From Halogeometricum sp. S1BR25-6 (GTDB lineage: Archaea; Halobacteriota; Halobacteria; Halobacteriales; Haloferacaceae): a DNA stretch of 64,000 bases. The notes under the pieces are model-generated. The model had not been told where the DNA came from. It searched no databases and was given only the letters and a program-made list of their open reading frames with translations. Within the stretch, counting starts at the first letter, position 1. Each line of letters begins with the position of its first letter. A program made the translations under genes and the position numbers. The DNA is taken from contig NZ_JAMQOP010000001.1 in NCBI RefSeq assembly GCF_031624495.1, positions 186,001 to 250,000 on the forward strand, written 5' to 3'. Positions 14,006-47,492 of the stretch are shown in pieces.

Positions 14006-14749
14006 TCACTCGCGGTACGTCGGCGCCGCCGCTTCCACCACGGCGCACGCCAGTTTCTCGAAGTCGGCGTTCTCGGGGACCACGTCGACCTCGATACCGT
14101 ACGACTCGGCCGTCTCTCGCGTCGGCGGGCCGATGACGCCGACGACAGCGCCGTTCAGACCCTCGATGGCTTCCTCGCGCACGCCCCGCGCTTCGGCCGC
14201 CGCGAGGAAGTTTTCCACGGTCAAGGAAGAACTGAAACAGACTCCTTCCAACTCCCCGCCGGCGGCCATCACCGTCGACTGCCCGGCGCCCTCGGGCGCG
14301 CTGAGTCGGTACAGCACCGTCTCGTACACCTCGGCGCCGGCCTCGCGCAGGCCGTCGAGGAGCACGCTGCTACCGTGGTCGCTCCGGGCGACTTCCACCG
14401 TCGCGCCCCCGACTTCGTCTCGAAGCCGTTCGACCAGTCCCGCGGAGGTGTATTCCTCGGGGACGATATCGACCGTCCACCCCGCGTCGCGGGCGTTCCC
14501 GGCCGTCGACGGGCCGATGCAGACCAGCGTCGCGTCGCCGGGTGACCACCCCGCCTCGGCGAGTAGTTCCACGCCCGTCTTGCTCGTCAGGACGACGTAC
14601 TCGCCCGCTTCGGGCGTCGCGCCCGTCGGTTCGACGGCGAGCATCGGGTCCGGCACCGGCGTCGCGCCGAGGGAGTCGAGCAGTTCGACGGCGTCGCGCA
14701 TCCGGTCGTCGTCCGGGCGGAAGACGGCCACGCGGACCTGCCGGCTCAC
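14006..14749 (-). CDS. hemD: Uroporphyrinogen-III synthase
   Basis: The enzyme closes and inverts hydroxymethylbilane to give uroporphyrinogen III. At 247 aa its length is normal. The family is poorly conserved, but the two-lobed pattern is clear: 'VVLTSKTGVELL', 'VCIGPSTAGNARDAGW', 'ARSDHGSSVLLDGLREAGAEV', then 'FSSSLTVENFL' and 'GVIGPPTRETAESYGIEVDVVPE'. The start ATG overlaps the cobA stop by four bases (ATGA). The order hemC-cobA-hemD gives the substrate of CobA and siroheme/cobalamin enzymes in one operon. Confidence 0.9.
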   Translation of the reverse strand: MSRQVRVAVFRPDDDRMRDAVELLDSLGATPVPDPMLAVEPTGATPEAGEYVVLTSKTGVELLAEAGWSPGDATLVCIGPSTAGNARDAGWTVDIVPEEYTSAGLVERLRDEVGGATVEVARSDHGSSVLLDGLREAGAEVYETVLYRLSAPEGAGQSTVMAAGGELEGVCFSSSLTVENFLAAAEARGVREEAIEGLNGAVVGVIGPPTRETAESYGIEVDVVPENADFEKLACAVVEAAAPTYRE

Positions 14750-15570
14750 TCGTCGTCACCCTCCGATTCGGCTCGTCCGTCGGCATCAGGGTCCCTACTT
14801 CCGTCCGCACCGGACTCGCCCGTCCGGTTCTCCAAGAACTCCACTACTCGCTCGCGCGTCCCGGCCACGTCGCCGATGACCGTGATTGCCGGCGGTTCTA
14901 TCTCCGACTCGTCGCGCACGGCGACGATGTCCTCCAAGGTCCCGGTGGCGACGCGCATCTCCGGCCGCGTCGCGCGTTCGACGAGGGCGACGGGCGTTTC
15001 GGGACTCTTCCCGGCGTCGAGGAGCGCCTTGGTGTAGTCGGGCAGGCCGCCGACGCCCATCAGGACGACGATGGTGCCGCCGGTGGCGGCCAACGCGTTC
15101 CAGTCGATGGCCGACTCCTCCTTCGTCGGGTCCTCGTGACCAGTGACGAACGAGACGGAAGAGGCGTACTCGCGATGGGTGACGGGGATGCCGGCCGTTC
15201 CCGGACCCGCGATGGCCGAGGTGATGCCGGGCACCACCTCGAACGGAATCTCCTCCGAAGCCAAGTGCTCCATCTCCTCGCCGCCGCGGCCGAACACGAA
15301 CGGGTCGCCGCCCTTCAGGCGCACGACGGTCTTGCCCTCGCGCGCGAGTTCCACCATCCGGCGGTTCGTGTACTCCTGCGGGGTCCACTCGCCGCCCGCG
15401 CGTTTACCGACGTCCTCCCGCTTCCCCTCGGGAATCGCGCCGAGAATCTCCGGGCCGGGGAGTTTGTCGTGCAGCACCACGTCGGCGGTTTCGAGCAGTC
15501 GCTTCGCCTTCACCGTCAGCAAGTCCGGGTCGCCCGGTCCGCTGCCGACGAGATAGACTTTCCCGACCAT
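14746..15570 (-). CDS. cobA: Uroporphyrinogen-III C-methyltransferase (SUMT)
   Basis: The enzyme uses two S-adenosylmethionine to methylate uroporphyrinogen III at C2 and C7, giving precorrin-2 for siroheme and cobalamin. The protein is 274 aa. Signature regions are 'VYLVGSGPGDPDLLTVKA' near the N-terminus and 'RLKGGDPFVFGRGGEEMEHL', then 'GITSAIAGPGTAGIPVTHRE'. The last 25 residues are an acidic tail rich in Asp and Glu with no family match. It starts one base after the hemC stop and overlaps hemD, so the three are one transcription unit. Confidence 0.95.
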   Translation of the reverse strand: MVGKVYLVGSGPGDPDLLTVKAKRLLETADVVLHDKLPGPEILGAIPEGKREDVGKRAGGEWTPQEYTNRRMVELAREGKTVVRLKGGDPFVFGRGGEEMEHLASEEIPFEVVPGITSAIAGPGTAGIPVTHREYASSVSFVTGHEDPTKEESAIDWNALAATGGTIVVLMGVGGLPDYTKALLDAGKSPETPVALVERATRPEMRVATGTLEDIVAVRDESEIEPPAITVIGDVAGTRERVVEFLENRTGESGADGSRDPDADGRAESEGDDE

Positions 15571-15571
15571 C

Positions 15572-16768
15572 TCACGCCTCGTCGCTCTCTGGTTCGACGT
15601 CGTCGAGTTCGCTCCTGTCGTCGTCCGTCTCCTCTCGCGCGCCGCCGCCCACGTCGTCGGCGTCCGCCTCCTCGCGCGCCGCGGCGATGAGGTCGTCCGC
15701 CCCGCGGTCGGCGAGGTCCGCGGCGAACTCCGCGGCCGCGTTCGCGTGGTCGCGCACCGGCAGGTCGCGGTTCGCTTTCACCTCCCTCTCGCCGTCCTCC
15801 GAGAGGACGCGCGCGGTGACGTGGACGTGCTCGCCCTGCAGTTTCGCGTGGACGCCGATGGGCGCGATGCACCCGCCGCCGAGTTCCGAGAGCACCGTCC
15901 GCTCGACGGTGGTCGTCACGCGCGTCCGCGGGTCGTCGAGGGCGTCTCGCATCTGGTCGAGGTTCTCGTGGTCGCGGCGGGCCGTGACGGCGATGGCGCC
16001 CTGTCCGGGCGAGGGGACGAACTCGCTCGGCGGGAGCCGCTGGTAGTCGACGCGGTGGAGCAGCCCCGACCGTTGCAGGCCGGCCTCCGCGAGGACGATG
16101 GCGTCGTACTCCGTCTCCACGTCGCGTTCCAGCGCGCGCCGCTCTATCTCGTCCAAGCCGTTGAACCACTCGTCGATGGAGCGGTCGAACTCCGTCTCGT
16201 ACTCCTCGCCGGAGGCCTTCGCCTCGGCGGCGTTGCCCTTCTTCTCCCTGTCGTCGTCGACGCGGGCCTCGTGCTCCCGTTGGAGCGTCGGCGCGAGCAG
16301 TTTCTCGACACGGGTGTCGACGTTGCCGCGGAGGGGTTCGACCTCCAAATCCGGCCGGGCGGCGAGTATCTGCGCCTTCCGACGGAGCGAGGAGGTGCCG
16401 ACGACCGACCCCGCGGGTAGGTCCTCCAACTCCGTGCCGTCGGTCGTGAGGAGCAGGTCGCCGGCCGCGGCGCGTCCGGGGACGCCGGCGACGACGAGGT
16501 CCGAGGGCTGTTCGGTCGGCATGTCCTTCATCGAGTGGACGGCGGCGTCCAACTCGCCGTCCAGCACCTCCTCGTCGAGGGCGCGGACGAACGCCCCGGT
16601 CTTGCCGAGTCGGTGGATAAGTTCGTCGCGTATCTGGTCGCCGCGCGTGTCCACCTCCACGAGTTCAACGTCGAACCGACGGTCGGCGAGGGCGTCGCGC
16701 ACACTCGCCGCCTGCCGGAGTGCGAGGTCCGAGCCTCGCGTCGCCAGTCGGAGCGTCCCGCGTTTCAT
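15572..16768 (-). CDS. hemC: Hydroxymethylbilane synthase (porphobilinogen deaminase)
   Basis: The enzyme joins four porphobilinogen units into hydroxymethylbilane. Its 398 aa is longer than the usual 310. Catalytic Asp82 is in 'HSMKDMP', and the cysteine that holds the dipyrromethane cofactor is in 'LGGGCIAPIGVHA'. Two additions explain the extra length: a charged insert at about residues 163-207 ('REHEARVDDDREKKGNAAEA' and following) and a 40-residue acidic C-terminal tail. I chose the ATG at 16768 because it gives the canonical 'RGTLRLATRGSDLALRQA' N-terminus; the 13-residue upstream extension has no family support. It is the first gene of the hemC-cobA-hemD operon. Confidence 0.95.
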   Translation of the reverse strand: MKRGTLRLATRGSDLALRQAASVRDALADRRFDVELVEVDTRGDQIRDELIHRLGKTGAFVRALDEEVLDGELDAAVHSMKDMPTEQPSDLVVAGVPGRAAAGDLLLTTDGTELEDLPAGSVVGTSSLRRKAQILAARPDLEVEPLRGNVDTRVEKLLAPTLQREHEARVDDDREKKGNAAEAKASGEEYETEFDRSIDEWFNGLDEIERRALERDVETEYDAIVLAEAGLQRSGLLHRVDYQRLPPSEFVPSPGQGAIAVTARRDHENLDQMRDALDDPRTRVTTTVERTVLSELGGGCIAPIGVHAKLQGEHVHVTARVLSEDGEREVKANRDLPVRDHANAAAEFAADLADRGADDLIAAAREEADADDVGGGAREETDDDRSELDDVEPESDEA

Positions 16769-39458: not shown

Positions 39459-40064
39459 ATGGGTTTCATGGACTCGATTCGCTCCGTCCTCGGTATCAGC
39501 GCCGAGGCGGACGCCACGCGCGACGCCGACCCCGAGGACCTCTTCGGGATGAGCACCGCCTACCTCACGATGGAGGCCGACCTCGGCTTCGAGTCCGTCG
39601 GCGCGGCGGCGCTCTGTTTCTCCTCGGTCGACAGCACCGATTTCGAGCAGACGGTCGAGGAGGTGGAGGCCATCCTCCAGGCCGGCGAGGAGGAGACAGG
39701 CACCACGTTCCGCGTCCAAGAGGACTCGCACGGCTGGGAGTGGGTCGTCCTCGAAGACGACGACCCGGAGGACCTCGTGACGAGCATCCACTTCGCCGCC
39801 GACGAGTTCATCGAACGCGGGTACGGCTCCCGCCTCCTCGCGGCCGTCTTCGGCTTCGAACGCGACGGCGACCGGGCGTACTGGATCTACTCGTTCCGCC
39901 GCGGCGCCTACTACCCGTTCGCGCCCGGCCGCGGTCGCGAGCAGAACGACCGCGTTCTGATGAAACTGGAGTCGGTGCTTGACGGCGAACTCAGTCTCGA
40001 ATCGGACAAGGAGTACTGGTACCCCATGTGGCCCGACCGCAAGGGCGGACACCCCTGGCAGTGA
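39459..40064 (+). CDS. PspAB-like protein (PspA-associated)
   Basis: The protein is 201 aa, soluble and acidic. The haloarchaeal 'PspA-associated protein PspAB' family has the pattern 'MGFMDSIRSVLGISAEAD', 'LTMEADLGFESVGAAALCF' and a C-terminal 'YWYPMWPDRKGGHPWQ'. It lies directly after htpX and belongs to the same transcript. Its role in the membrane-stress response is inferred from the pairing, not from a motif. Confidence 0.82.
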   Translation: MGFMDSIRSVLGISAEADATRDADPEDLFGMSTAYLTMEADLGFESVGAAALCFSSVDSTDFEQTVEEVEAILQAGEEETGTTFRVQEDSHGWEWVVLEDDDPEDLVTSIHFAADEFIERGYGSRLLAAVFGFERDGDRAYWIYSFRRGAYYPFAPGRGREQNDRVLMKLESVLDGELSLESDKEYWYPMWPDRKGGHPWQ

Positions 40065-40221
40065 CCCGCTGAGACGACCGTTCGATTCTCCGTTTTGGCT
40101 GCGCCGAACGCCTCCGGAAAGAGCGCCGGCGCCGCGAATCATCGCTTAAACCTTCACGACTATCTGAACGAAGATGCGCCGCTGTCGTGCGGTTTCACTT
40201 CCACTACGGTGTTAACGAGGG

Positions 40222-40229
40222 TTTATGTG
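40222..40229 (+). promoter_or_regulatory. TATA box of radA
   Basis: TTTATGTG is centred about 29 bases before the radA ATG. The 190-base gap before it shows no gene. Confidence 0.65.
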
Positions 40230-40254
40230 CTCGTGGGACTCAGAGTGAGATACG

Positions 40255-41286
40255 ATGCCCGAAGACGATCTCGAAAGTCTCCCCGGCGTGGGTCCCGCTA
40301 CCGCAGACAAACTCGTGGAAGCCGGCTTCGAGAGCTACCAGTCGATAGCCGTCGCCAGCCCCAGCGAACTCTCGAACACGGCCGACGTGGGCGAGTCCAC
40401 CTCCTCCGACATCATCAATGCCGCCCGCAAGGCGGCGGACATCGGCGGGTTCGAGACCGGTTCGATGGTCCTCGAACGACGTCAGGAGATCGGAAAGCTG
40501 AGCTGGCAGATTCCAGAAGTCGACGAACTGCTCGGCGGCGGACTGGAGACGCAGTCCATCACCGAGGTGTACGGCGAGTTCGGTTCCGGGAAGTCGCAGG
40601 TCACCCACCAGATGGCCGTCAACGTCCAACTTCCCCCCGAACACGGCGGTCTCGGCGGTTCCTGTATGTTCATCGACTCCGAGGACACGTTCCGCCCCGA
40701 ACGCATCGACGACATGCTCCGCGGCCTCGACGACGAACTCATCCAGGCGATGATGGACGACCGCGAGATAGAGGGGACGCCGGACGACGAGGAGGCGATG
40801 TCCGTGCTCCTCGACGACGTGCTCGACAAGATTCACGTCGCGAAGGCGTTCAACTCCAACCACCAGATCCTCCTCGCCGAAAAGGCGCAGGAACTGGCGC
40901 GCGAGCACGAAGATGACGAGTTCCCCGTCCGCCTGCTCTGCGTCGACTCCCTGACCGCGCACTTCCGCGCGGAGTACGTCGGCCGCGGTCAACTGGCCGA
41001 CCGCCAGCAGAAACTCAACAAGCACCTCCACGAACTCGACAAGGTCGGCAACCTCCACAACACGGTCGTCCTCGTGACGAACCAAGTCGCCTCGAACCCC
41101 GACTCGTACTTCGGCGACCCGACCCAGCCCATCGGGGGGAACATCCTCGGGCACAAATCGACGTTCCGCATCTACCTCCGCAAGTCGAAGGGCGACAAGC
41201 GTATCGTCCGCCTCGTCGACGCGCCGAACCTCGCGGACGGCGAGGGTATCATGCGCGTGCAGGACGGCGGGCTGAAACCCGAGTAA
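40255..41286 (+). CDS. radA: DNA repair and recombination protein RadA
   Basis: The archaeal RecA/Rad51-family recombinase forms filaments on single-stranded DNA and promotes strand exchange. The protein is 343 aa. The N-terminal helix-hairpin-helix domain ('[17 protein letters not shown]') precedes the linker and the core; Walker A is at about residues 107-115 (GEFGSGKSQ). Walker B is in '[11 protein letters not shown]' and loops L1/L2 are in '[12 protein letters not shown]' and '[20 protein letters not shown]'. No intein is present. It has its own TATA and stands alone. Confidence 0.97.
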
Positions 41287-41364
41287 CGATAACAGCAACG
41301 CCGACCGCGAGGGAGCGACTCACCCCGTCCTTTTCGACCGCCGGTAGCCGCGCCGAGAGAGCGC

Positions 41365-42207
41365 TCAGGGGAGCGGTCGCTCGCGCCGGCCGGTGACGAC
41401 GAACCAGTCGAGGAGGAAGTTCGCGAGGAAGGGGAGCATCGTCGCCGTCGCCGCCGCCCACGCGGCCCCGTGCGGCACCACGGGAGCCAGAAGGACGGCC
41501 GTCGCCGCCATCTGTCCGCCGGCGAGCACGCGGCGCGACGTGCTGTGCGGGAGGTCGAAGACGGGCAGTCCGCGCTGTCGTCGCACCCACGCGCCGGCGA
41601 CGAAGAGGTACCGCGCGGCACCGACGAGCGGGTACCACGGCGGGAGCGACCCGGCGGCGACGCCGACGACGGCGGCGGCGAGGAGTCCGGCGGCGTCGAC
41701 GTTCATATCCAGCCACGCCCCGAGGAGCGTTCGCCGCCCCCGGGCGCGAGCGATGGCACCGTCGAGCGCGTCGAGCGCGGCGACGGCGCCGTAGAGAACT
41801 GCGGGGAACCACCCTACCGGCGGGTGAACGGCGAGCAACCCCGCGAGCGAGGCGACGAGCGCCCCCCGGAACAGCGTCACCGCGTTGGCGACGCCCAGCG
41901 TGTCGAACGGTCGGCCTCCCTCGGGCGGTCGATTCAGCCCGACGTTTCGACGCCCGAGGCCGACGACGGCCGCGACGCCCGCGCCCGAGAGAACGGCCCA
42001 CGGGAGGCCCGCTCCGGGTGCTCGCCGCTCGACGAGGACGGCGACGACGCCGACGCACGCGAGGAATCCGACGGCGAGGGCCGCGAGTTGCCGCGCGGTC
42101 CGGGGCGGCGCAGCCTCGTCCGCGAGTCGCTCCGCCCGGTTGTCCGGGCGGGCGTCCCCCGTCTCGCTCGCTCGGGACACCCCGCGATTCTCCGGTGTCT
42201 CCTCCAC
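41365..42207 (-). CDS. CDP-alcohol phosphatidyltransferase family membrane protein
   Basis: The protein is 280 aa with about six to seven helices. The complete catalytic motif runs from Asp146 to Asp171 (D..DG..AR, then G...D...D), with Asp146, Asp149, Asp167 and Asp171. Such enzymes transfer a phosphoalcohol from CDP-activated lipid to an alcohol such as serine, glycerol phosphate or inositol phosphate. The acceptor cannot be read. It is divergent from the MDR gene and may belong functionally to the neighbouring pterin/glycosyl set. Confidence 0.88.
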   Translation of the reverse strand: MEETPENRGVSRASETGDARPDNRAERLADEAAPPRTARQLAALAVGFLACVGVVAVLVERRAPGAGLPWAVLSGAGVAAVVGLGRRNVGLNRPPEGGRPFDTLGVANAVTLFRGALVASLAGLLAVHPPVGWFPAVLYGAVAALDALDGAIARARGRRTLLGAWLDMNVDAAGLLAAAVVGVAAGSLPPWYPLVGAARYLFVAGAWVRRQRGLPVFDLPHSTSRRVLAGGQMAATAVLLAPVVPHGAAWAAATATMLPFLANFLLDWFVVTGRRERPLP

Positions 42208-42342
42208 GAAACGCGAATAGGGAGCCGACGGAGGTGAACGTTCGCACGCGCGACAGCTTTACCCCGACTCACCCGTCAGTCGTGGTATGCACCGACAGAC
42301 AGCGGCCGGAACGGGGGCGTCGCCTCCCGCGGGCGTTCACCG

Positions 42343-43356
42343 GTGACCGACGCGAGGCGCGTTCGGTTCACCGAACCGCGAACCGTCGACGTCGAACACG
42401 GCCCGGTCCCGCGACCGGACGACGGGGAGGTGCTCGTGGAGACGACGGTGTCGGCCGTCAGCCCCGGCACCGAACTGCTCGTCTACCGCGACGACGTCCC
42501 CACGGACGTTCCGCTCGACGCGACGATAGACGGATTCGACGAACCGCTCTCCTATCCGGTCTCGTACGGTTACGCCGCCGTCGGCGTCGTCGTCGCCGTC
42601 GGCGACGCCGTCGACGCCGCGTGGGCGGGCCGCCGAGTCTTCGCCTTCCGCCCGCACGCGAGTCACTTCTGCGCCGCCCCCGACTCGCTCGTCGCCCTCC
42701 CGGACGACGTGTCCGACGAGGACGCCGCGATGCTCGCGACGGCGGAGACGGCGACGGGGTTCGTGATGGACGGCCGCCCGCGCGTCGGCGAACGCGTCGC
42801 CGTCTTCGGGCAGGGCGTCGTCGGCCTCCTCACCACCGCGTTGCTCGCGCGGTTCCCGCTCTCGGACCTCGTCACGGTCGACCGGCACGCCTCGCGCAGG
42901 ACCCGGTCGCGGTCGCTGGGCGCGCACGAAGCGTTCACTCCCGAGGCCGTCCAGGACAGCGTCACCGACCGCTTCCCGGGCGACGGCCGGGCGGACCTCG
43001 CCTTCGAGCTATCGGGCAACCCCGAGGCTCTCTCGGACGCCATCTCGCTCACCGGCGACGATGGCCGCCTCGTCGTGGGGTCGTGGTACGGTTCGAAACC
43101 CGTCTCGCTCGACCTGGGCGGACGCTTCCACCGCAGTCGGATGCGCGTCCGGTCGAGTCAGGTGAGCGAAATCGACGCCGACCACGCCGGCCGTTGGGAC
43201 AAGAAGCGTCGCCTCGACTACGTCCTCGACTCCCTGCCGGACCTCGAACCCTCGTCGCTCGTCACCCATCGCTTTCCGGTCGAGGACGCCGCCGACGCCT
43301 ACCGGGTGCTCGACCGCGACCCCGCCGACGCCGTGCAGGTACTTTTCACCTACTGA
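42343..43356 (+). CDS. MDR-family oxidoreductase, zinc ligands missing
   Basis: The protein is 337 aa. The N-terminal GroES-like domain and the Rossmann fold ('RVAVFGQGVVGLLTTALLA') identify the medium-chain dehydrogenase family. The usual catalytic zinc ligands are not in place: 'VSAVSPGTELLVYRDDVP' stands where 'CGICGSD' would be, as in BchC-like and other TDH-related members. So hydride transfer would not use the classical zinc. It precedes the PTPS gene by 100 bases; the two may share a pathway. The start is GTG. Confidence 0.82.
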   Translation: MTDARRVRFTEPRTVDVEHGPVPRPDDGEVLVETTVSAVSPGTELLVYRDDVPTDVPLDATIDGFDEPLSYPVSYGYAAVGVVVAVGDAVDAAWAGRRVFAFRPHASHFCAAPDSLVALPDDVSDEDAAMLATAETATGFVMDGRPRVGERVAVFGQGVVGLLTTALLARFPLSDLVTVDRHASRRTRSRSLGAHEAFTPEAVQDSVTDRFPGDGRADLAFELSGNPEALSDAISLTGDDGRLVVGSWYGSKPVSLDLGGRFHRSRMRVRSSQVSEIDADHAGRWDKKRRLDYVLDSLPDLEPSSLVTHRFPVEDAADAYRVLDRDPADAVQVLFTY

Positions 43357-43371
43357 CTGGATTCGGCCGCT

Positions 43372-43419
43372 CCGGTCGCTTCGACCGCCCCGCCCGTTCC
43401 GGTCGCTCCGGCCGCCCCG
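43372..43419. repeat. 21-base imperfect direct repeat in the MDR-PTPS gap
   Basis: Copies at 43372-43392 and 43399-43419 are 21 bases with two differences (period 27). Pure C+G rich sequence; the copies have no obvious promoter role. The TATA of the PTPS gene follows eight bases later. Confidence 0.5.
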
Positions 43420-43426
43420 ACCGCGG

Positions 43427-43434
43427 TTTTACGG
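43427..43434 (+). promoter_or_regulatory. TATA box of the PTPS-GT-methyltransferase operon
   Basis: TTTTACGG is centred about 27 bases before the ATG at 43457, so this three-gene unit has its own leaderless promoter, separate from the MDR gene. Confidence 0.55.
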
Positions 43435-43456
43435 CGGTTCCGACCCACGGGACGCT

Positions 43457-43834
43457 ATGTACGCCGTGACCGTCGTTCGGCCCTTCGTCGCCCAGCACGC
43501 GCTGACCGTTCCGAACCCCGGTCCCGAGGGGGAACCTCACTCGCATCGGTACCGACTGGAGGTCGAACTGACCGGCGAGACGCTCGACGAGTACGACTAC
43601 CTGGTCGACATCGACGCCGTGGAGGCGGCGCTTGACGATGTGGAGGAGCGCTACGCCGACGCCTTCCTGAACGACTTGCCGGAGTTCGAGGGGTACAATC
43701 CCAGCGTCGAACGGTTCGCGCGGGTGGTCCACGACCGCCTCGCCGCCGAACTCGACGCCGAGGCGGTGTCGGAAGCGACGGTCACCGTCTGGGAGGACGA
43801 CGTGGCGAACGCGGCCTACGCCGCGCCGCTCTGA
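43457..43834 (+). CDS. 6-pyruvoyl-tetrahydropterin synthase homologue, PTPS-III-like
   Basis: The protein is 125 aa. Zinc ligands are His14, His28 and His30 (in 'AQHALTVPNPGPEGEPHSHR'). In QueD/PTPS the catalytic cysteine is four residues before the second histidine; here this is Glu24. That change defines PTPS-III, which makes 6-hydroxymethyl-dihydropterin for folate-like cofactors instead of the queuosine precursor. The function is inferred from this position. It heads an operon with a glycosyltransferase and a methyltransferase; its stop overlaps the glycosyltransferase start by one base. Confidence 0.85.
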   Translation: MYAVTVVRPFVAQHALTVPNPGPEGEPHSHRYRLEVELTGETLDEYDYLVDIDAVEAALDDVEERYADAFLNDLPEFEGYNPSVERFARVVHDRLAAELDAEAVSEATVTVWEDDVANAAYAAPL

Positions 43835-44958
43835 TGCGCGTCGCCCTCGTCGTTCCGGGGTCGCTCGACACCGCGTCCGGCGGGTTCGCCTACGACCGGG
43901 CGCTCGTCGATAGCCTCCGCGCCGCGGGCGAGACGGTCCGCGTCGTTTCCGTCCCGTGGCGGCGCTACCCGCTGGGCGTCGTCGACTCGCTGGTCCCCCG
44001 ACGGCTCTCTCCGCCGGGGTTCGACCCGGACGTCGTCCTCGCGGACGAACTCGCCCATCCGGCGCTGCTTCGTTCTAACGTCGACGCGCCCATCGTCGCC
44101 CTCGTCCACCACCTCCGCTGCGACGCCGTCGACGGACTCGACGCGACCGTCGCACGGACGCTCGAACGACGCTTTCTCGACGACTGCGTCGCCGCCGTCT
44201 GCACGAGTCGCCCGACGGCGGACTCGGTCGAACGGCGCGCCCCCGGCCTCCGAACGCACGTCGCCCCGCCCGTCGACACGCAGTTCGACCCGGACGTGAC
44301 GCCCGCCGAAGTCGACCGACGCGCCCGGAGAGAACCGTTCCGCGTCGCCTTCGTCGGCAACCTCGTCCCGCGGAAGGGCGTTCTGACGCTCCTCGACTCG
44401 CTCGCCGGACTGGACGAACCGTGGCGCGCCACGCTCGTGGGCGGCCACCCGGACGAAACCCACCTGCGCCGCGTCCGCGAGCGGATTCGGCGGCGCGGAC
44501 TCGGCGACCGGGTCCGCATCACGGGGTCGCTTCCGACCGAGGAGACGGCCGCGGTCCTCCGCGAGAGCCACGTCTTCGCGATGCCTTCGGCGCACGAGGG
44601 GTTCGGCATCGCCTACCTCGAAGCGATGGGGTTCGGTCTCCCCGTCGTCGCCTCGGCGTCCGGCGGGGCGTCCGACCTCGTCGACCCCTCGACCGGCGTC
44701 CTCGCGGAACCGGGCGACGTGGGGGGCGTCCGGGACGCCATCGCTGGATTCGCCGCGGACAGAACTCGACTCGCGGCGGCCGGGCGGGCCGCCCTCGACC
44801 GGTACGCGGCGCACCCCCCGTGGTCGGAGACGGTGGCCGGCGTCCGACGCTTCCTCCGAGCGACCGTCGACCGCCGCGGTGCCGTCGTCGGCGACGCGGA
44901 CCGGGACGACGACTCCGGCCCCGCTCCGCAGACGGAGACGGGAGGGAGAGGGGGGTGA
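43834..44958 (+). CDS. Glycosyltransferase, GT4-like
   Basis: The protein is 374 aa with two Rossmann-like halves. The N-terminal nucleotide-binding loop is 'VVPGSLDTASGGFAYDRAL'; the C-terminal half has 'FRVAFVGNLVPRKGVLTLLD' and the sugar-nucleotide motif 'HEGFGIAYLEAMGFGLPVVA' (E-x7-E). The acceptor is unknown. Translation is coupled with PTPS and with the methyltransferase (one-base and four-base overlaps). This suggests that a pterin-derived or other small molecule is glycosylated. Confidence 0.85.
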   Translation: MRVALVVPGSLDTASGGFAYDRALVDSLRAAGETVRVVSVPWRRYPLGVVDSLVPRRLSPPGFDPDVVLADELAHPALLRSNVDAPIVALVHHLRCDAVDGLDATVARTLERRFLDDCVAAVCTSRPTADSVERRAPGLRTHVAPPVDTQFDPDVTPAEVDRRARREPFRVAFVGNLVPRKGVLTLLDSLAGLDEPWRATLVGGHPDETHLRRVRERIRRRGLGDRVRITGSLPTEETAAVLRESHVFAMPSAHEGFGIAYLEAMGFGLPVVASASGGASDLVDPSTGVLAEPGDVGGVRDAIAGFAADRTRLAAAGRAALDRYAAHPPWSETVAGVRRFLRATVDRRGAVVGDADRDDDSGPAPQTETGGRGG

Positions 44959-45944
44959 AAGGCGATTTCCGACGCTACCTCGCGGCGAAGGAGTCCGTCG
45001 ACGACCGGGCGTTCGCCCCCGACGTGCGCCGTCTCGTCCGGTCGGACCTCGCCGGCCGGTCGGACGGCCTCCGCCTCCTCGACGCCGGGGCGGGGACGGG
45101 GCCGTTCCTCCGCCGCCTCCTCGCGTGGGACGTCCCGGACCTCACGTACGTCGCCGTCGATTCCGACGGCGCGAACCTCGACCGCGCCCGCGAACGCGTC
45201 GCGGCGGCGGCGCCGGCGGCCGGGTACGCCGTCGATTCCGTCGACGCCGACGGCGGAGGTCCCGAGGGTGACTTCGAGTTCGACTTCAGTTTCGATTTCG
45301 ACGTCCCGGGCGAGACGGTGGGGTCGCTGTCGCTGACGGGCGAGAACGATATCGACGTGCGCTTCGTCCGCGGCGACGCCCTCGACGCCGCCGAGGCGGG
45401 CGGGTGGGATTGCACCGTCGCGCAGGCGTTCGTGGACCTCCTCGACCCGGCGGGCGTGGACCGCCTCCTCGACGGCCTCGCTCCCGGCGGTCGGTTCTAC
45501 TTCCCCATCACCTTCGACGGCGGCACCGCGTTCGCGCCGCCGCACGACGCCGACGACGCCGTCCTCTCGGCGTACCACGCGACGATGCACGACGGGGACC
45601 GCCTCGGGTCGCGGGCGGGGAGGTTGCTGGAGCGACACCTCGACGCGCGGGGTATCGATTACGTCGCGGCGGACGCCGACTGGTCGGTGCGGCCGGTCGG
45701 TGAGCACTCGCGGGGCGGGAACGGCCCGAACGAAGGCCCGGACGGCGATGCGGGGGACAGGCGCGGCTACCCGGCCGACGAGGCGTACTTCCTCCGCGTC
45801 GTCGTGGACACGGTGGCCGACGCCGTCCGGGGACGCGTCGACGAGGGGACGACACGCCGGTGGCACCGCGCGCGCCGACGAGAACTCGACGCTCGTCGAC
45901 TGAAGTTCGCGGCGAGAAACAGGGACGTGACGGGAATCGTGTGA
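44955..45944 (+). CDS. Class I SAM-dependent methyltransferase
   Basis: The protein is 329 aa. Motif I is 'LRLLDAGAGTGPFLRRLL'; the acidic loop 'YVAVDSDGANLDRARERV' is motif II, and 'WDCTVAQAFVDLLD' motif IV. A Phe/Asp-rich insert (about residues 96-118) is unusual. The GTG start overlaps the glycosyltransferase stop by four bases. It probably acts on the same product as its partners, but the acceptor is unknown. The C-terminal 70 residues are Arg-rich and helical. Confidence 0.83.
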   Translation: MKGDFRRYLAAKESVDDRAFAPDVRRLVRSDLAGRSDGLRLLDAGAGTGPFLRRLLAWDVPDLTYVAVDSDGANLDRARERVAAAAPAAGYAVDSVDADGGGPEGDFEFDFSFDFDVPGETVGSLSLTGENDIDVRFVRGDALDAAEAGGWDCTVAQAFVDLLDPAGVDRLLDGLAPGGRFYFPITFDGGTAFAPPHDADDAVLSAYHATMHDGDRLGSRAGRLLERHLDARGIDYVAADADWSVRPVGEHSRGGNGPNEGPDGDAGDRRGYPADEAYFLRVVVDTVADAVRGRVDEGTTRRWHRARRRELDARRLKFAARNRDVTGIV

Positions 45945-45983
45945 CGCGGGCGGTGCGGTTCGCGGGCCGGCGACGCGACGGAC

Positions 45984-46409
45984 TCAGTCGTCCGCTTCGG
46001 TCGTCGTCTTCTCCTCGTCGACGTCGCCCTCGTAGATGGCCGCACCGTCCTGGGTCACCTGTCGAGCGAGGACGGCGCACTTGATGCGCATCGGCGAGAT
46101 GTCGACGCCGAGCATCTCGGTCACGTCGTCGGTGTCCATCTCCTCCAGTTCCGACAGCGTCGTCCCCTGCAGTCGCTCCGAGAGCATGCTCGCCGAGGCC
46201 TGACTGATGGCGCAACCGTCGCCGGTGAACGCGACGAACTCGATGGTCTCCTCGTCGTCTTCGAGTTTCACCTGCATCGTGATGGTGTCGCCGCAGGAGG
46301 GGTTCTCGCCGGTGTGCGAGAACGTCGGCTCTTCCATCTCGCCCTTGTTTCGGGGGTTCTTGTAGTGGTCCAGAATCTGCTGTCGATACATGTCCGAGCC
46401 CATACCCAT
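45984..46409 (-). CDS. IscU/SufU-like iron-sulfur scaffold
   Basis: The protein is 141 aa. The three cluster-ligand cysteines are Cys39 ('NPSCGD'), Cys66 ('GDGCAIS') and Cys111 ('IKCAVLA'), and Asp41 follows the first. This is the scaffold on which a [2Fe-2S] cluster is built from sulfur delivered by SufS (48239). The last 15 residues are acidic. Starts at 46409 (MGMGSD) and three codons later are both possible. Confidence 0.92.
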   Translation of the reverse strand: MGMGSDMYRQQILDHYKNPRNKGEMEEPTFSHTGENPSCGDTITMQVKLEDDEETIEFVAFTGDGCAISQASASMLSERLQGTTLSELEEMDTDDVTEMLGVDISPMRIKCAVLARQVTQDGAAIYEGDVDEEKTTTEADD

Positions 46410-46504
46410 AGTGAACGGTCGTAGGTGAGTTCGGCTGAAAAGCGTTCCGGGGCGAACGATTCCCGTCCGAACGCACTCGTGTCCGGGGGCCGTGTGGTCG
46501 CCTG

Positions 46505-46936
46505 ATGGACCCGACCAAACGACTCGCGTCCAACCTCCGCTCGGAGTCGTCCGCCTACGGCTACACGCTCACCATCTGGGGAGCGGGCGCGCTGCTGATT
46601 CACGAGTACGGTATGCCCGGCGAGCCGTCGGTGTTCGCCTACGTCGGCGGCGCACTCCTCGGATTCGCGGCGCTCTCGTGGGTCGCGTTCGGGGGACCTC
46701 TCTCCCACGTCGACGAGACGGACGTCGACATGACCGCCCTCTCGATGATTCACGTCGCCGCCACCGCCGGCAACCTCGTCGTCGTCGTCCTCGTCGCGAA
46801 CATGCTTCACGCCGCCGGCGTTCGACCGCCCGCGGCGTTCGGCGTCGTCGGCGCGCAGTCGACGGTGGTGTACAACGCGTCGCTGCTGCTCGAAGACTTC
46901 GTCTCGGAAGCGTTGGTCTCGGCGTTCAGCACGTGA
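46505..46936 (+). CDS. Four-helix membrane protein, unknown function
   Basis: The protein is 143 aa with four hydrophobic helices (about residues 21-33, 41-62, 78-102 and 108-128). There is no family I can name and no catalytic motif. It starts 96 bases from the IscU-like gene on the opposite strand, so the gap holds both promoters. It converges with the MscS gene with a seven-base gap. Confidence 0.7.
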   Translation: MDPTKRLASNLRSESSAYGYTLTIWGAGALLIHEYGMPGEPSVFAYVGGALLGFAALSWVAFGGPLSHVDETDVDMTALSMIHVAATAGNLVVVVLVANMLHAAGVRPPAAFGVVGAQSTVVYNASLLLEDFVSEALVSAFST

Positions 46937-46943
46937 ACCGCGC

Positions 46944-47492
46944 TCACTCCGACTCCACCCGCCGCCACTTCTTCTCCACCTCGCGGTTGGCGACGACGAC
47001 GGTGTCCCCCTCGTCGTCGCGGAACCGACTCTTCCGCAGGCCGATGGACTCGACGACGCCCGTCGCCGGGTCCGACTCCACGCGGTCGCCGGGGTTGAAA
47101 TCCGGGTCGCGGAGCAGGTAGACGCCCGCCACCGTGTCGGCGATCATGTTCGACAGCGCGTAGGAGACGCCCAGCGCGACGAACCCCGTCGCGGTGCCGA
47201 GACTCGCAGCCACGTCCCCCATGCCGACTATCTTGAAGAACGCCAGCGCCGCGGCGAACCAGAGGAACACCCCGGCGACGGTGACGCCGAGACTGACCAC
47301 GAGGTCCTGTTCGTCCGGGTAGAGGGCGTCGAGCGCCCCGCGGAGGAGCCACAGCGCGAGTCTGATGACGACGTAGGCGAGGACGAGAAAGACGATACCG
47401 CCGAGAACGTTCGGAATCGCCGCTCGAAGCCCGAGGACGAATTCCACGAACGTCCCGCGGACGACGTCTGCGACGGAACCGGTCTGTAACAC
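46944..47492 (-). CDS. Small MscS-type mechanosensitive channel
   Basis: The protein is 182 aa, shorter than E. coli MscS (286 aa). Three helices are followed by the pore-lining segment 'GDVAASLGTATGFVALGVSY' and the beta domain 'GVYLLRDPDFNPGDRVES' with 'VVESIGLRKSRFRDDEGDTV'. The C-terminal alpha/beta cage ends early ('VANREVEKKWRRVESE'), so this is a minimal channel. It would relieve osmotic down-shock. Confidence 0.85.
   Translation of the reverse strand: MLQTGSVADVVRGTFVEFVLGLRAAIPNVLGGIVFLVLAYVVIRLALWLLRGALDALYPDEQDLVVSLGVTVAGVFLWFAAALAFFKIVGMGDVAASLGTATGFVALGVSYALSNMIADTVAGVYLLRDPDFNPGDRVESDPATGVVESIGLRKSRFRDDEGDTVVVANREVEKKWRRVESE

Follow-up and report, generated by a model that had tools for sequence, protein, structure and literature searches.

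The PTPS homologue SCO6650 of Streptomyces coelicolor is reportedly inactive as a PTPS and free of zinc. Its structure was released by the Protein Data Bank (PDB) in 2008 (entry 3d7j). Published motifs separate PTPS-I, to which QueD belongs (CxxxHGH), PTPS-II (CxxxxxHGH) and PTPS-III (ExxHGH) (motif account in PMC5041015), and PTPS-IV, AGeNNT cluster-node 62, has the signature FGPAQ and a neighbourhood with RibA and RibD_C that has been in print since 2017 (PMC5445326, neighbourhood section). Here we analyze a window of 64,000 nucleotides from Halogeometricum sp. S1BR25-6 (contig NZ_JAMQOP010000001.1, positions 186,001 to 250,000, forward strand), in which a PTPS gene stands between genes for a zinc-free medium-chain dehydrogenase/reductase (MDR) and for a GT4 glycosyltransferase and a class I S-adenosylmethionine (SAM)-dependent methyltransferase (MT), with a cytidine diphosphate (CDP)-alcohol phosphatidyltransferase gene diverging from them (Table 1). 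Our best explanation, argued from sequence comparison and held with about even confidence, is that this operon represents the haloarchaeal version of an orphan module that would convert GTP, through 2-amino-5-formylamino-6-ribosylamino-4(3H)-pyrimidinone 5′-phosphate (FAPy) or the corresponding 2,5-diamino compound (DARP), into a glycosylated, methylated and possibly lipid-linked pteridine. Our literature search, mostly of freely readable papers, returned nothing on the haloarchaeal form, on the set of MDR, GT4, MT and CDP-alcohol enzyme, or on a product.

With respect to conservation, MDR, PTPS, GT4 and MT constitute a conserved functional gene set. A scan of GTDB contigs gave 95 stretches encoding a PTPS relative, the best 80 of which (65 with full flanks) served as haloarchaeal loci, their neighbour families being grouped by seeded phmmer. 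Within 5.5 kb of PTPS, these loci hold the MDR in 73 cases, GT4 in 72 (including the divergently placed Haloarcula-type GT4), MT in 59 and the CDP-alcohol transferase in 44, as well as GTP cyclohydrolase III in 38, a fusion of Gfo/Idh/MocA and aldo/keto reductase (AKR) domains in 34 and a sulfatase-like protein in 21, and a PTPS without module partners is the minority case. None of the module families occurred within 5.5 kb of QueD in 20 control loci taken from QueD-type places and treated alike (two were shortened by contig ends), which, set against the recurrence in the 80 haloarchaeal loci, rules out chance clustering. Across 99 related genomes, PTPS and MDR are found together in 69, PTPS only in 3, MDR only in 1 and neither in 26; of the 69 genomes with both, 60 have the MDR within 5 kb of PTPS and 58 have it immediately upstream in the same orientation. 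The corresponding Fisher value of 1.8e-19 overstates independence, as the genomes are related. For this count, MDR matches below about 100 bits (genomes G071 and G083) and a weaker second match in G039 were left out. An earlier sequence-only reading of the window had proposed a neighbourhood search and had named PTPS occurring mostly without the other genes as the pattern that would speak against its proposal; the pattern found is the opposite, and the families recur beside PTPS both in haloarchaea and in bacteria, Streptomyces and Microbacterium included.

The bacterial loci come from annotated plasmid records, and 12 were examined (11 of 20 bacterial records and a Microvirga locus whose PTPS is not PTPS-IV). 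The complete MDR-PTPS-GT4-MT set is present in Streptomyces fungicidicus, Microbacterium, rhizobia, Agrobacterium, Methylosinus and Thiodictyon; GT4 is absent from the cluster of Rhodobacteraceae SC52 and sits 4 kb upstream in Palleronia. By coordinates, 16 of the 20 records have the MDR immediately upstream of PTPS, and the other four are all from Streptomyces. Profiles built from haloarchaeal sequences only recovered the bacterial proteins: all ten bacterial cluster MDRs scored 212-234 bits (against 73 and 52 for own-genome paralogues), eight bacterial GT4s scored 131-196 bits, the exception being the Microbacterium GT4 at 83 bits (below the best own-genome paralogue, at 100), and ten bacterial cluster MTs scored 43-73 bits. 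By such profile comparison, the module is common to haloarchaea and bacteria, with the same gene families clustered in both. The 12 bacterial loci additionally contain RibA in 5, a RibD-type reductase in 8, a CDP-alcohol transferase in 6 and a flippase-like gene in 5, and sulfatase-annotated genes lie near the rhizobial clusters. Behind the Streptomyces MT comes an open reading frame (ORF) that the PLSDB gene table does not list (L084, approximately 14600-15790, plus strand); its product is similar to the LPG-synthase-TM (flippase-like) proteins encoded in the Microbacterium and rhizobial clusters.

In terms of the PTPS protein itself, we aligned 85 archaeal rows (the window, loci L001-L080, L081-L083 and L096) with 12 bacterial rows. 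Glu24 occupies the position of the QueD catalytic cysteine in all 85 archaeal rows, as the sequence-only reading had noted for the window. The zinc histidines His14, His28 and His30 are kept in the haloarchaeal clade (84/85 each), as are Asp68 (84/85) and Glu85 (85/85), and Glu113, the pterin anchor, is found in every archaeal row and in 11 of the 12 bacterial ones. Position 69 is mainly Glu, Ala or Thr across the archaeal rows, and the catalytic histidine is therefore lost. The window protein accordingly shares the fold and zinc ligands of QueD but differs from it in having neither the catalytic Cys nor the catalytic His. Its motif, PGPEGEPHSH, matches none of the four class signatures: CxxxHGH fails at Glu24 and at the lost His; ExxHGH is replaced by Gly25 and HSH (Gly25 in 77/85 and Ser29 in 82/85 archaeal rows); and PGPEG stands in place of the FGPAQ that 10 of the 12 bacterial rows carry. 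The bacterial rows, which represent the kin of SCO6650, replace the second His of HGH by Ala in 11 of 12 cases, giving HGA where the haloarchaeal proteins have HSH.

Despite these differences, the nearest kin of the haloarchaeal clade are the PTPS-IV proteins. A haloarchaeal PTPS profile scored 11 bacterial PTPS-IV proteins at 42-63 bits, with QueD controls reaching 26 at most; in the reverse direction, a bacterial PTPS-IV profile gave 28-60 bits for the haloarchaeal clade and at most 10 for any QueD. The PTPS tree separates QueD, at 100/99, from a grouping of the haloarchaeal clade, PTPS-IV and the Microvirga row; its branches are long and its bootstrap unsettled, and we use it only alongside the profile scores. 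An AlphaFold2 model of the window protein (pLDDT 94.3) had its best structural match in SCO6650 (3d7j; E 2.3e-10, template-modelling score 0.89, 30% identity), compared with E 6.7e-9 for QueD. Judged by profiles, tree and modelled structure, the window PTPS is a PTPS-IV-like sister clade and not a PTPS-III. What sets it apart from the PTPS-IV of PMC5445326 is the PGPEG motif, the retained zinc ligands and a GTP cyclohydrolase III instead of RibA; the RibA and RibD_C neighbours described there are shared with our bacterial clusters, and the section that deals with the neighbourhood does not name an MDR, GT4, MT or CDP-alcohol partner.

This placement bears on the sequence-only reading, which had called the protein PTPS-III-like. 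A folate enzyme of that type, replacing dihydroneopterin aldolase, would account for the PTPS fold and for a Glu near the catalytic site. However, the ExxHGH motif is absent, and the archaeal dihydroneopterin aldolase MptD (PF04038) is present in 97 of the 99 genomes and in all 78 near-complete ones, with the host's own copy at C1:617370. The module PTPS is also dispensable, being absent from 17 of 79 genomes that are at least 90% complete. These three observations rule out the folate role, which we regard as extremely improbable, and with it the PTPS-III label. Our analysis also corrects the misleading annotation of these haloarchaeal proteins as 6-carboxytetrahydropterin synthase.

The genes around the clusters point to where the pathway would begin. 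In 30 of 72 genomes, GTP cyclohydrolase III shares the strand of PTPS and is no more than 5 kb away from it; PTPS places were accepted here when their Pfam match started at position 1-4, and QueD-type places with later starts and the fragment G077:C1 were dropped. Wherever a genome has two places for this enzyme, one is by the cluster (9/9; the two in G045 are fragments, and G045:C14, G045:C2 and the weak G014:C3 were dropped). The cluster copy of Haloarcula halophila exceeds the NCBIfam cut-off for GTP cyclohydrolase IIa. In Streptomyces fungicidicus, whose cluster has a creatininase, RibA carries Met at the position of Escherichia coli Tyr105; in four clusters that have no creatininase, it carries Tyr. 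Work on SCO6655 reportedly found that Met at this position leads to FAPy, whose formyl group a creatininase-type enzyme would remove; different enzymes would thus converge on DARP. The cluster reductase is nearest to archaeal ArfC (2azn) and falls below the NCBIfam cut-offs. Given GTP cyclohydrolase III, RibA, the RibD-type reductase and creatininase, we place the likely entry on the FAPy/DARP branch rather than at neopterin triphosphate, and the co-conserved enzymes thereby narrow the candidate starting material. No deaminase is annotated in the clusters inspected, which suggests that the 2-amino-4-oxo pterin face is kept. The sequence-only reading missed these neighbours, although its view of the core genes as a set is retained.

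Homologues of the riboflavin and F420 entry enzymes (ArfA, the creatininase-type ArfB and ArfC; RibA and RibD_C) are thus found in or beside the clusters, and an unpublished remark recorded in PMC5041015 links PTPS-IV to coenzyme F420 or riboflavin. A PTPS serving either cofactor, with incidental neighbours, would fit its position next to GTP cyclohydrolase III or II and the riboflavin auxotrophy caused by deleting arfA (HVO_1284), as given in the part of PMC8305020 on this gene; judging from that phenotype, riboflavin synthesis can also draw on a cyclohydrolase next to such a cluster. Related Haloferax loci suggest that in Haloferax volcanii PTPS, MDR and GT4 probably adjoin HVO_1284. We nonetheless consider this reading improbable. 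CofD is near universal (95 of 99 genomes, 78 of 78 near-complete) and PTPS, with the absences given above, is not, which lowers the F420 version, and GT4, MT and the CDP-alcohol transferase would be left unexplained. Unlike the usual entry sets, moreover, those of the clusters are second, cluster-linked copies in some genomes, and they are followed by MDR, PTPS, GT4 and MT, where the riboflavin route has lumazine synthase.

In the MDR, alignment shows GYA for the GHE of zinc enzymes and VSPGTE in the region of the ligand Cys, in agreement with the sequence-only reading, which had described an MDR without zinc ligands just before PTPS. Tyr75, the residue that replaces the ligand, is invariant in 66/66 haloarchaeal and 10/10 bacterial cluster MDRs, which makes the loss of zinc a family feature; Tyr77, His105, Glu135, Trp248, His263 and Gln273 are likewise identical in all of these rows. 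Such identity across haloarchaea, actinobacteria and proteobacteria argues that the module must make something useful. Against the NCBIfam BchC equivalog, the MDR scores 72.5 bits, short of the cut-off of 291. The GT4 exceeds the Glycos_transf_1 cut-off (100.8 versus 26.4 bits) and contains EGFGIAYLE, an instance of the ExxxxxxxE motif of retaining GT4 glycosyltransferases. Sequence and fold searches with the MT gave only generic class I matches, and the haloarchaeal MT profile matched the ten bacterial cluster MTs, its own gene and nothing else.

Taken together, these observations suggest the following route. A cyclohydrolase of the riboflavin kind, which is GTP cyclohydrolase III in archaea and the RibA type in bacteria, would open GTP to give FAPy or DARP and, where FAPy is formed, a creatininase-type deformylase would yield DARP, with a RibD/ArfC-type reductase available for the ribosyl chain. 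The PTPS-like protein would bind the 2-amino-4-oxo face through Glu113 and, with the MDR, may close or reshape the second ring by means other than the Cys/His retro-aldol chemistry of QueD and PTPS-II. GT4 would then add a sugar and MT a methyl group, and the CDP-alcohol enzyme, along with the flippase-like protein of several bacteria, may link the product to a lipid of the membrane. Entry from GTP, binding of the ring through Glu113, glycosylation and methylation are the likely parts of this scheme; it is speculative that the ring closes after the MDR has oxidized a ribityl chain, and that the CDP-alcohol enzyme attaches the product to a lipid. For the proposal of the sequence-only reading, a glycosylated, methylated and perhaps lipid-linked pterin, co-occurrence and neighbour counts bear out the functional set, and the product is the best reading of it. 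Cyanopterin and other cyanobacterial pterin glycosides (described in the relevant section of PMC13259868) are sugar-decorated pterins of the kind predicted here, and our literature search found no link between their pathways and the module.

The reductase may complicate ring closure, since reduction to a ribityl chain would block the usual Amadori closure to a pterin. This difficulty favours a non-pterin product from the same GTP-derived start, namely a glycosylated, methylated and perhaps lipid-linked pyrimidine alditol of nucleoside-like character, with the T-fold protein only binding the ring. A RibD/ArfC-type reductase nearest to DARP reductases in 8 of 12 bacterial loci and the loss of the catalytic Cys and His of PTPS are what such a product would lead one to expect, but the PTPS fold with its conserved pterin anchor speaks for a pterin, and the MDR, conserved residue for residue, could reopen the route to one; we consider the alditol unlikely, yet the weightiest of the alternatives. 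A bolder extension of the pteridine reading, to which we assign a rather low probability, is a second pterin route bypassing GTP cyclohydrolase I and the Amadori step. Here the riboflavin-type cyclohydrolase would take GTP to DARP, the RibD/ArfC-type enzyme would reduce the ribosyl chain, the zinc-free MDR would re-oxidize the ribityl C2′, and the PTPS-IV-type protein would close the ring to a 6-substituted dihydropterin phosphate. After decoration by GT4 and MT and anchoring to a membrane lipid by the CDP-alcohol enzyme, the result in haloarchaea and bacteria alike would be a membrane-bound, redox- or light-active glyco-pterin.

The glycan-related neighbours could also be taken to mark a locus devoted mainly to surface glycolipids (GT4, CDP-alcohol transferase, Gfo/Idh-AKR, sulfatase-like protein and flippase), in which PTPS and MDR make a minor head group. 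The frequencies of the fusion, sulfatase-like and CDP-alcohol genes in the 80 loci agree with this, as do the sulfatase-annotated genes and flippases of rhizobia. Nonetheless, MDR and PTPS are the most constant pair, the glycan genes differ from locus to locus, and GTP cyclohydrolases appear repeatedly; we give this alternative little credence. Among these neighbours, the fused Gfo/Idh/MocA-AKR protein adjoins the module (e.g., L096 4919-6886, minus strand), and the sulfatase-like protein, which is below the Pfam cut-off and has no sequence match in the PDB, lies upstream of the MDR (e.g., L096 6979-7845, plus strand).

Several observations weigh against the proposed pteridine module. Decoration is not universal: 21 of 80 loci (the Haloferax group among them) have no MT near PTPS and 8 have no GT4, and six loci have PTPS and MDR with neither. 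The MDR is absent in seven (two of which, L052 and L078, have less than 2.2 kb upstream), Natrarchaeobaculum has MDR and cyclohydrolase with no PTPS nearby, and a plasmid PTPS-IV of Streptomyces anthocyanicus (L094 9001-9426) stands without other module genes. One zinc ligand kept in archaeal PTPS is missing from the bacterial proteins, and the two may therefore catalyze different reactions. Finally, the single GTP cyclohydrolase III of the window genome lies outside the cluster, from where it would have to supply both riboflavin and the module pathway. As to the surroundings of these loci, the L094 gene neighbours a MEKHLA-domain protein and cupins, and in Halorubrum and Halobellus loci L033, L035, L042, L047, L049 and L057 the MDR is downstream on the opposite strand, with GT4 and MT absent. 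The orphan, open since the SCO6650 structure, becomes testable in Haloferax, as the species of locus L041 and others carry the cluster.

Table 1. Features of the pteridine-module locus in window coordinates
Feature	Position	Strand	Remarks
CDP-alcohol phosphatidyltransferase	41365-42207	-	divergent; Pfam CDP-OH_P_transf; frequent module partner
TATA-like TTTAC upstream of mini-ORF and MDR	42258-42262	+	by eye
19-codon mini-ORF	42287-42346	+	TGA overlaps MDR start by 4 bases
MDR oxidoreductase, zinc-free, BchC-like	42343-43356	+	Pfam ADH_zinc_N/ADH_N; module core
TATA-like TTTTAC of PTPS-GT4-MT	43427-43432	+	by eye; ~27 bases before PTPS start
PTPS-IV-like T-fold protein, 125 aa	43457-43834	+	Pfam PTPS
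GT4 glycosyltransferase	43834-44958	+	Pfam Glycos_transf_1; EGFGIAYLE
Class I SAM methyltransferase (MT), cluster-specific family	44955-45944	+	weak Pfam Methyltransf_25

At the locus itself, ORF coordinates and Pfam matches agree with the sequence-only reading on the five genes, their order, the divergent CDP-alcohol transferase and the overlaps of 1 base between PTPS and GT4 (TGATG) and 4 bases between GT4 and MT (GTGA). The one TATA that it had assigned to PTPS-GT4-MT is present as a TATA-like box, and the TTTTA/TTTA run before PTPS recurs in the two nearest relatives. This box lies in a gap of 100 bases between MDR and PTPS, genes that are nearly contiguous in relatives such as L041. The gene set is flanked by a RadA-like gene and an IscU-like gene (named from reading the translations only), and the genome holds two PTPS genes, the module copy at C1:229466 and a QueD-type copy at C1:1888492. 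An Rfam scan of 40000-47000 gave no match; neither did a sigma-70 promoter and terminator scan, which says little because the host is an archaeon. The mini-ORF begins approximately 29 bases after its TATA-like box, and its overlap with the MDR gene possibly reflects translational coupling. The same layout is found in Halogeometricum pallidum (L001 6885-6944) and was seen by eye in H. limi (L002).

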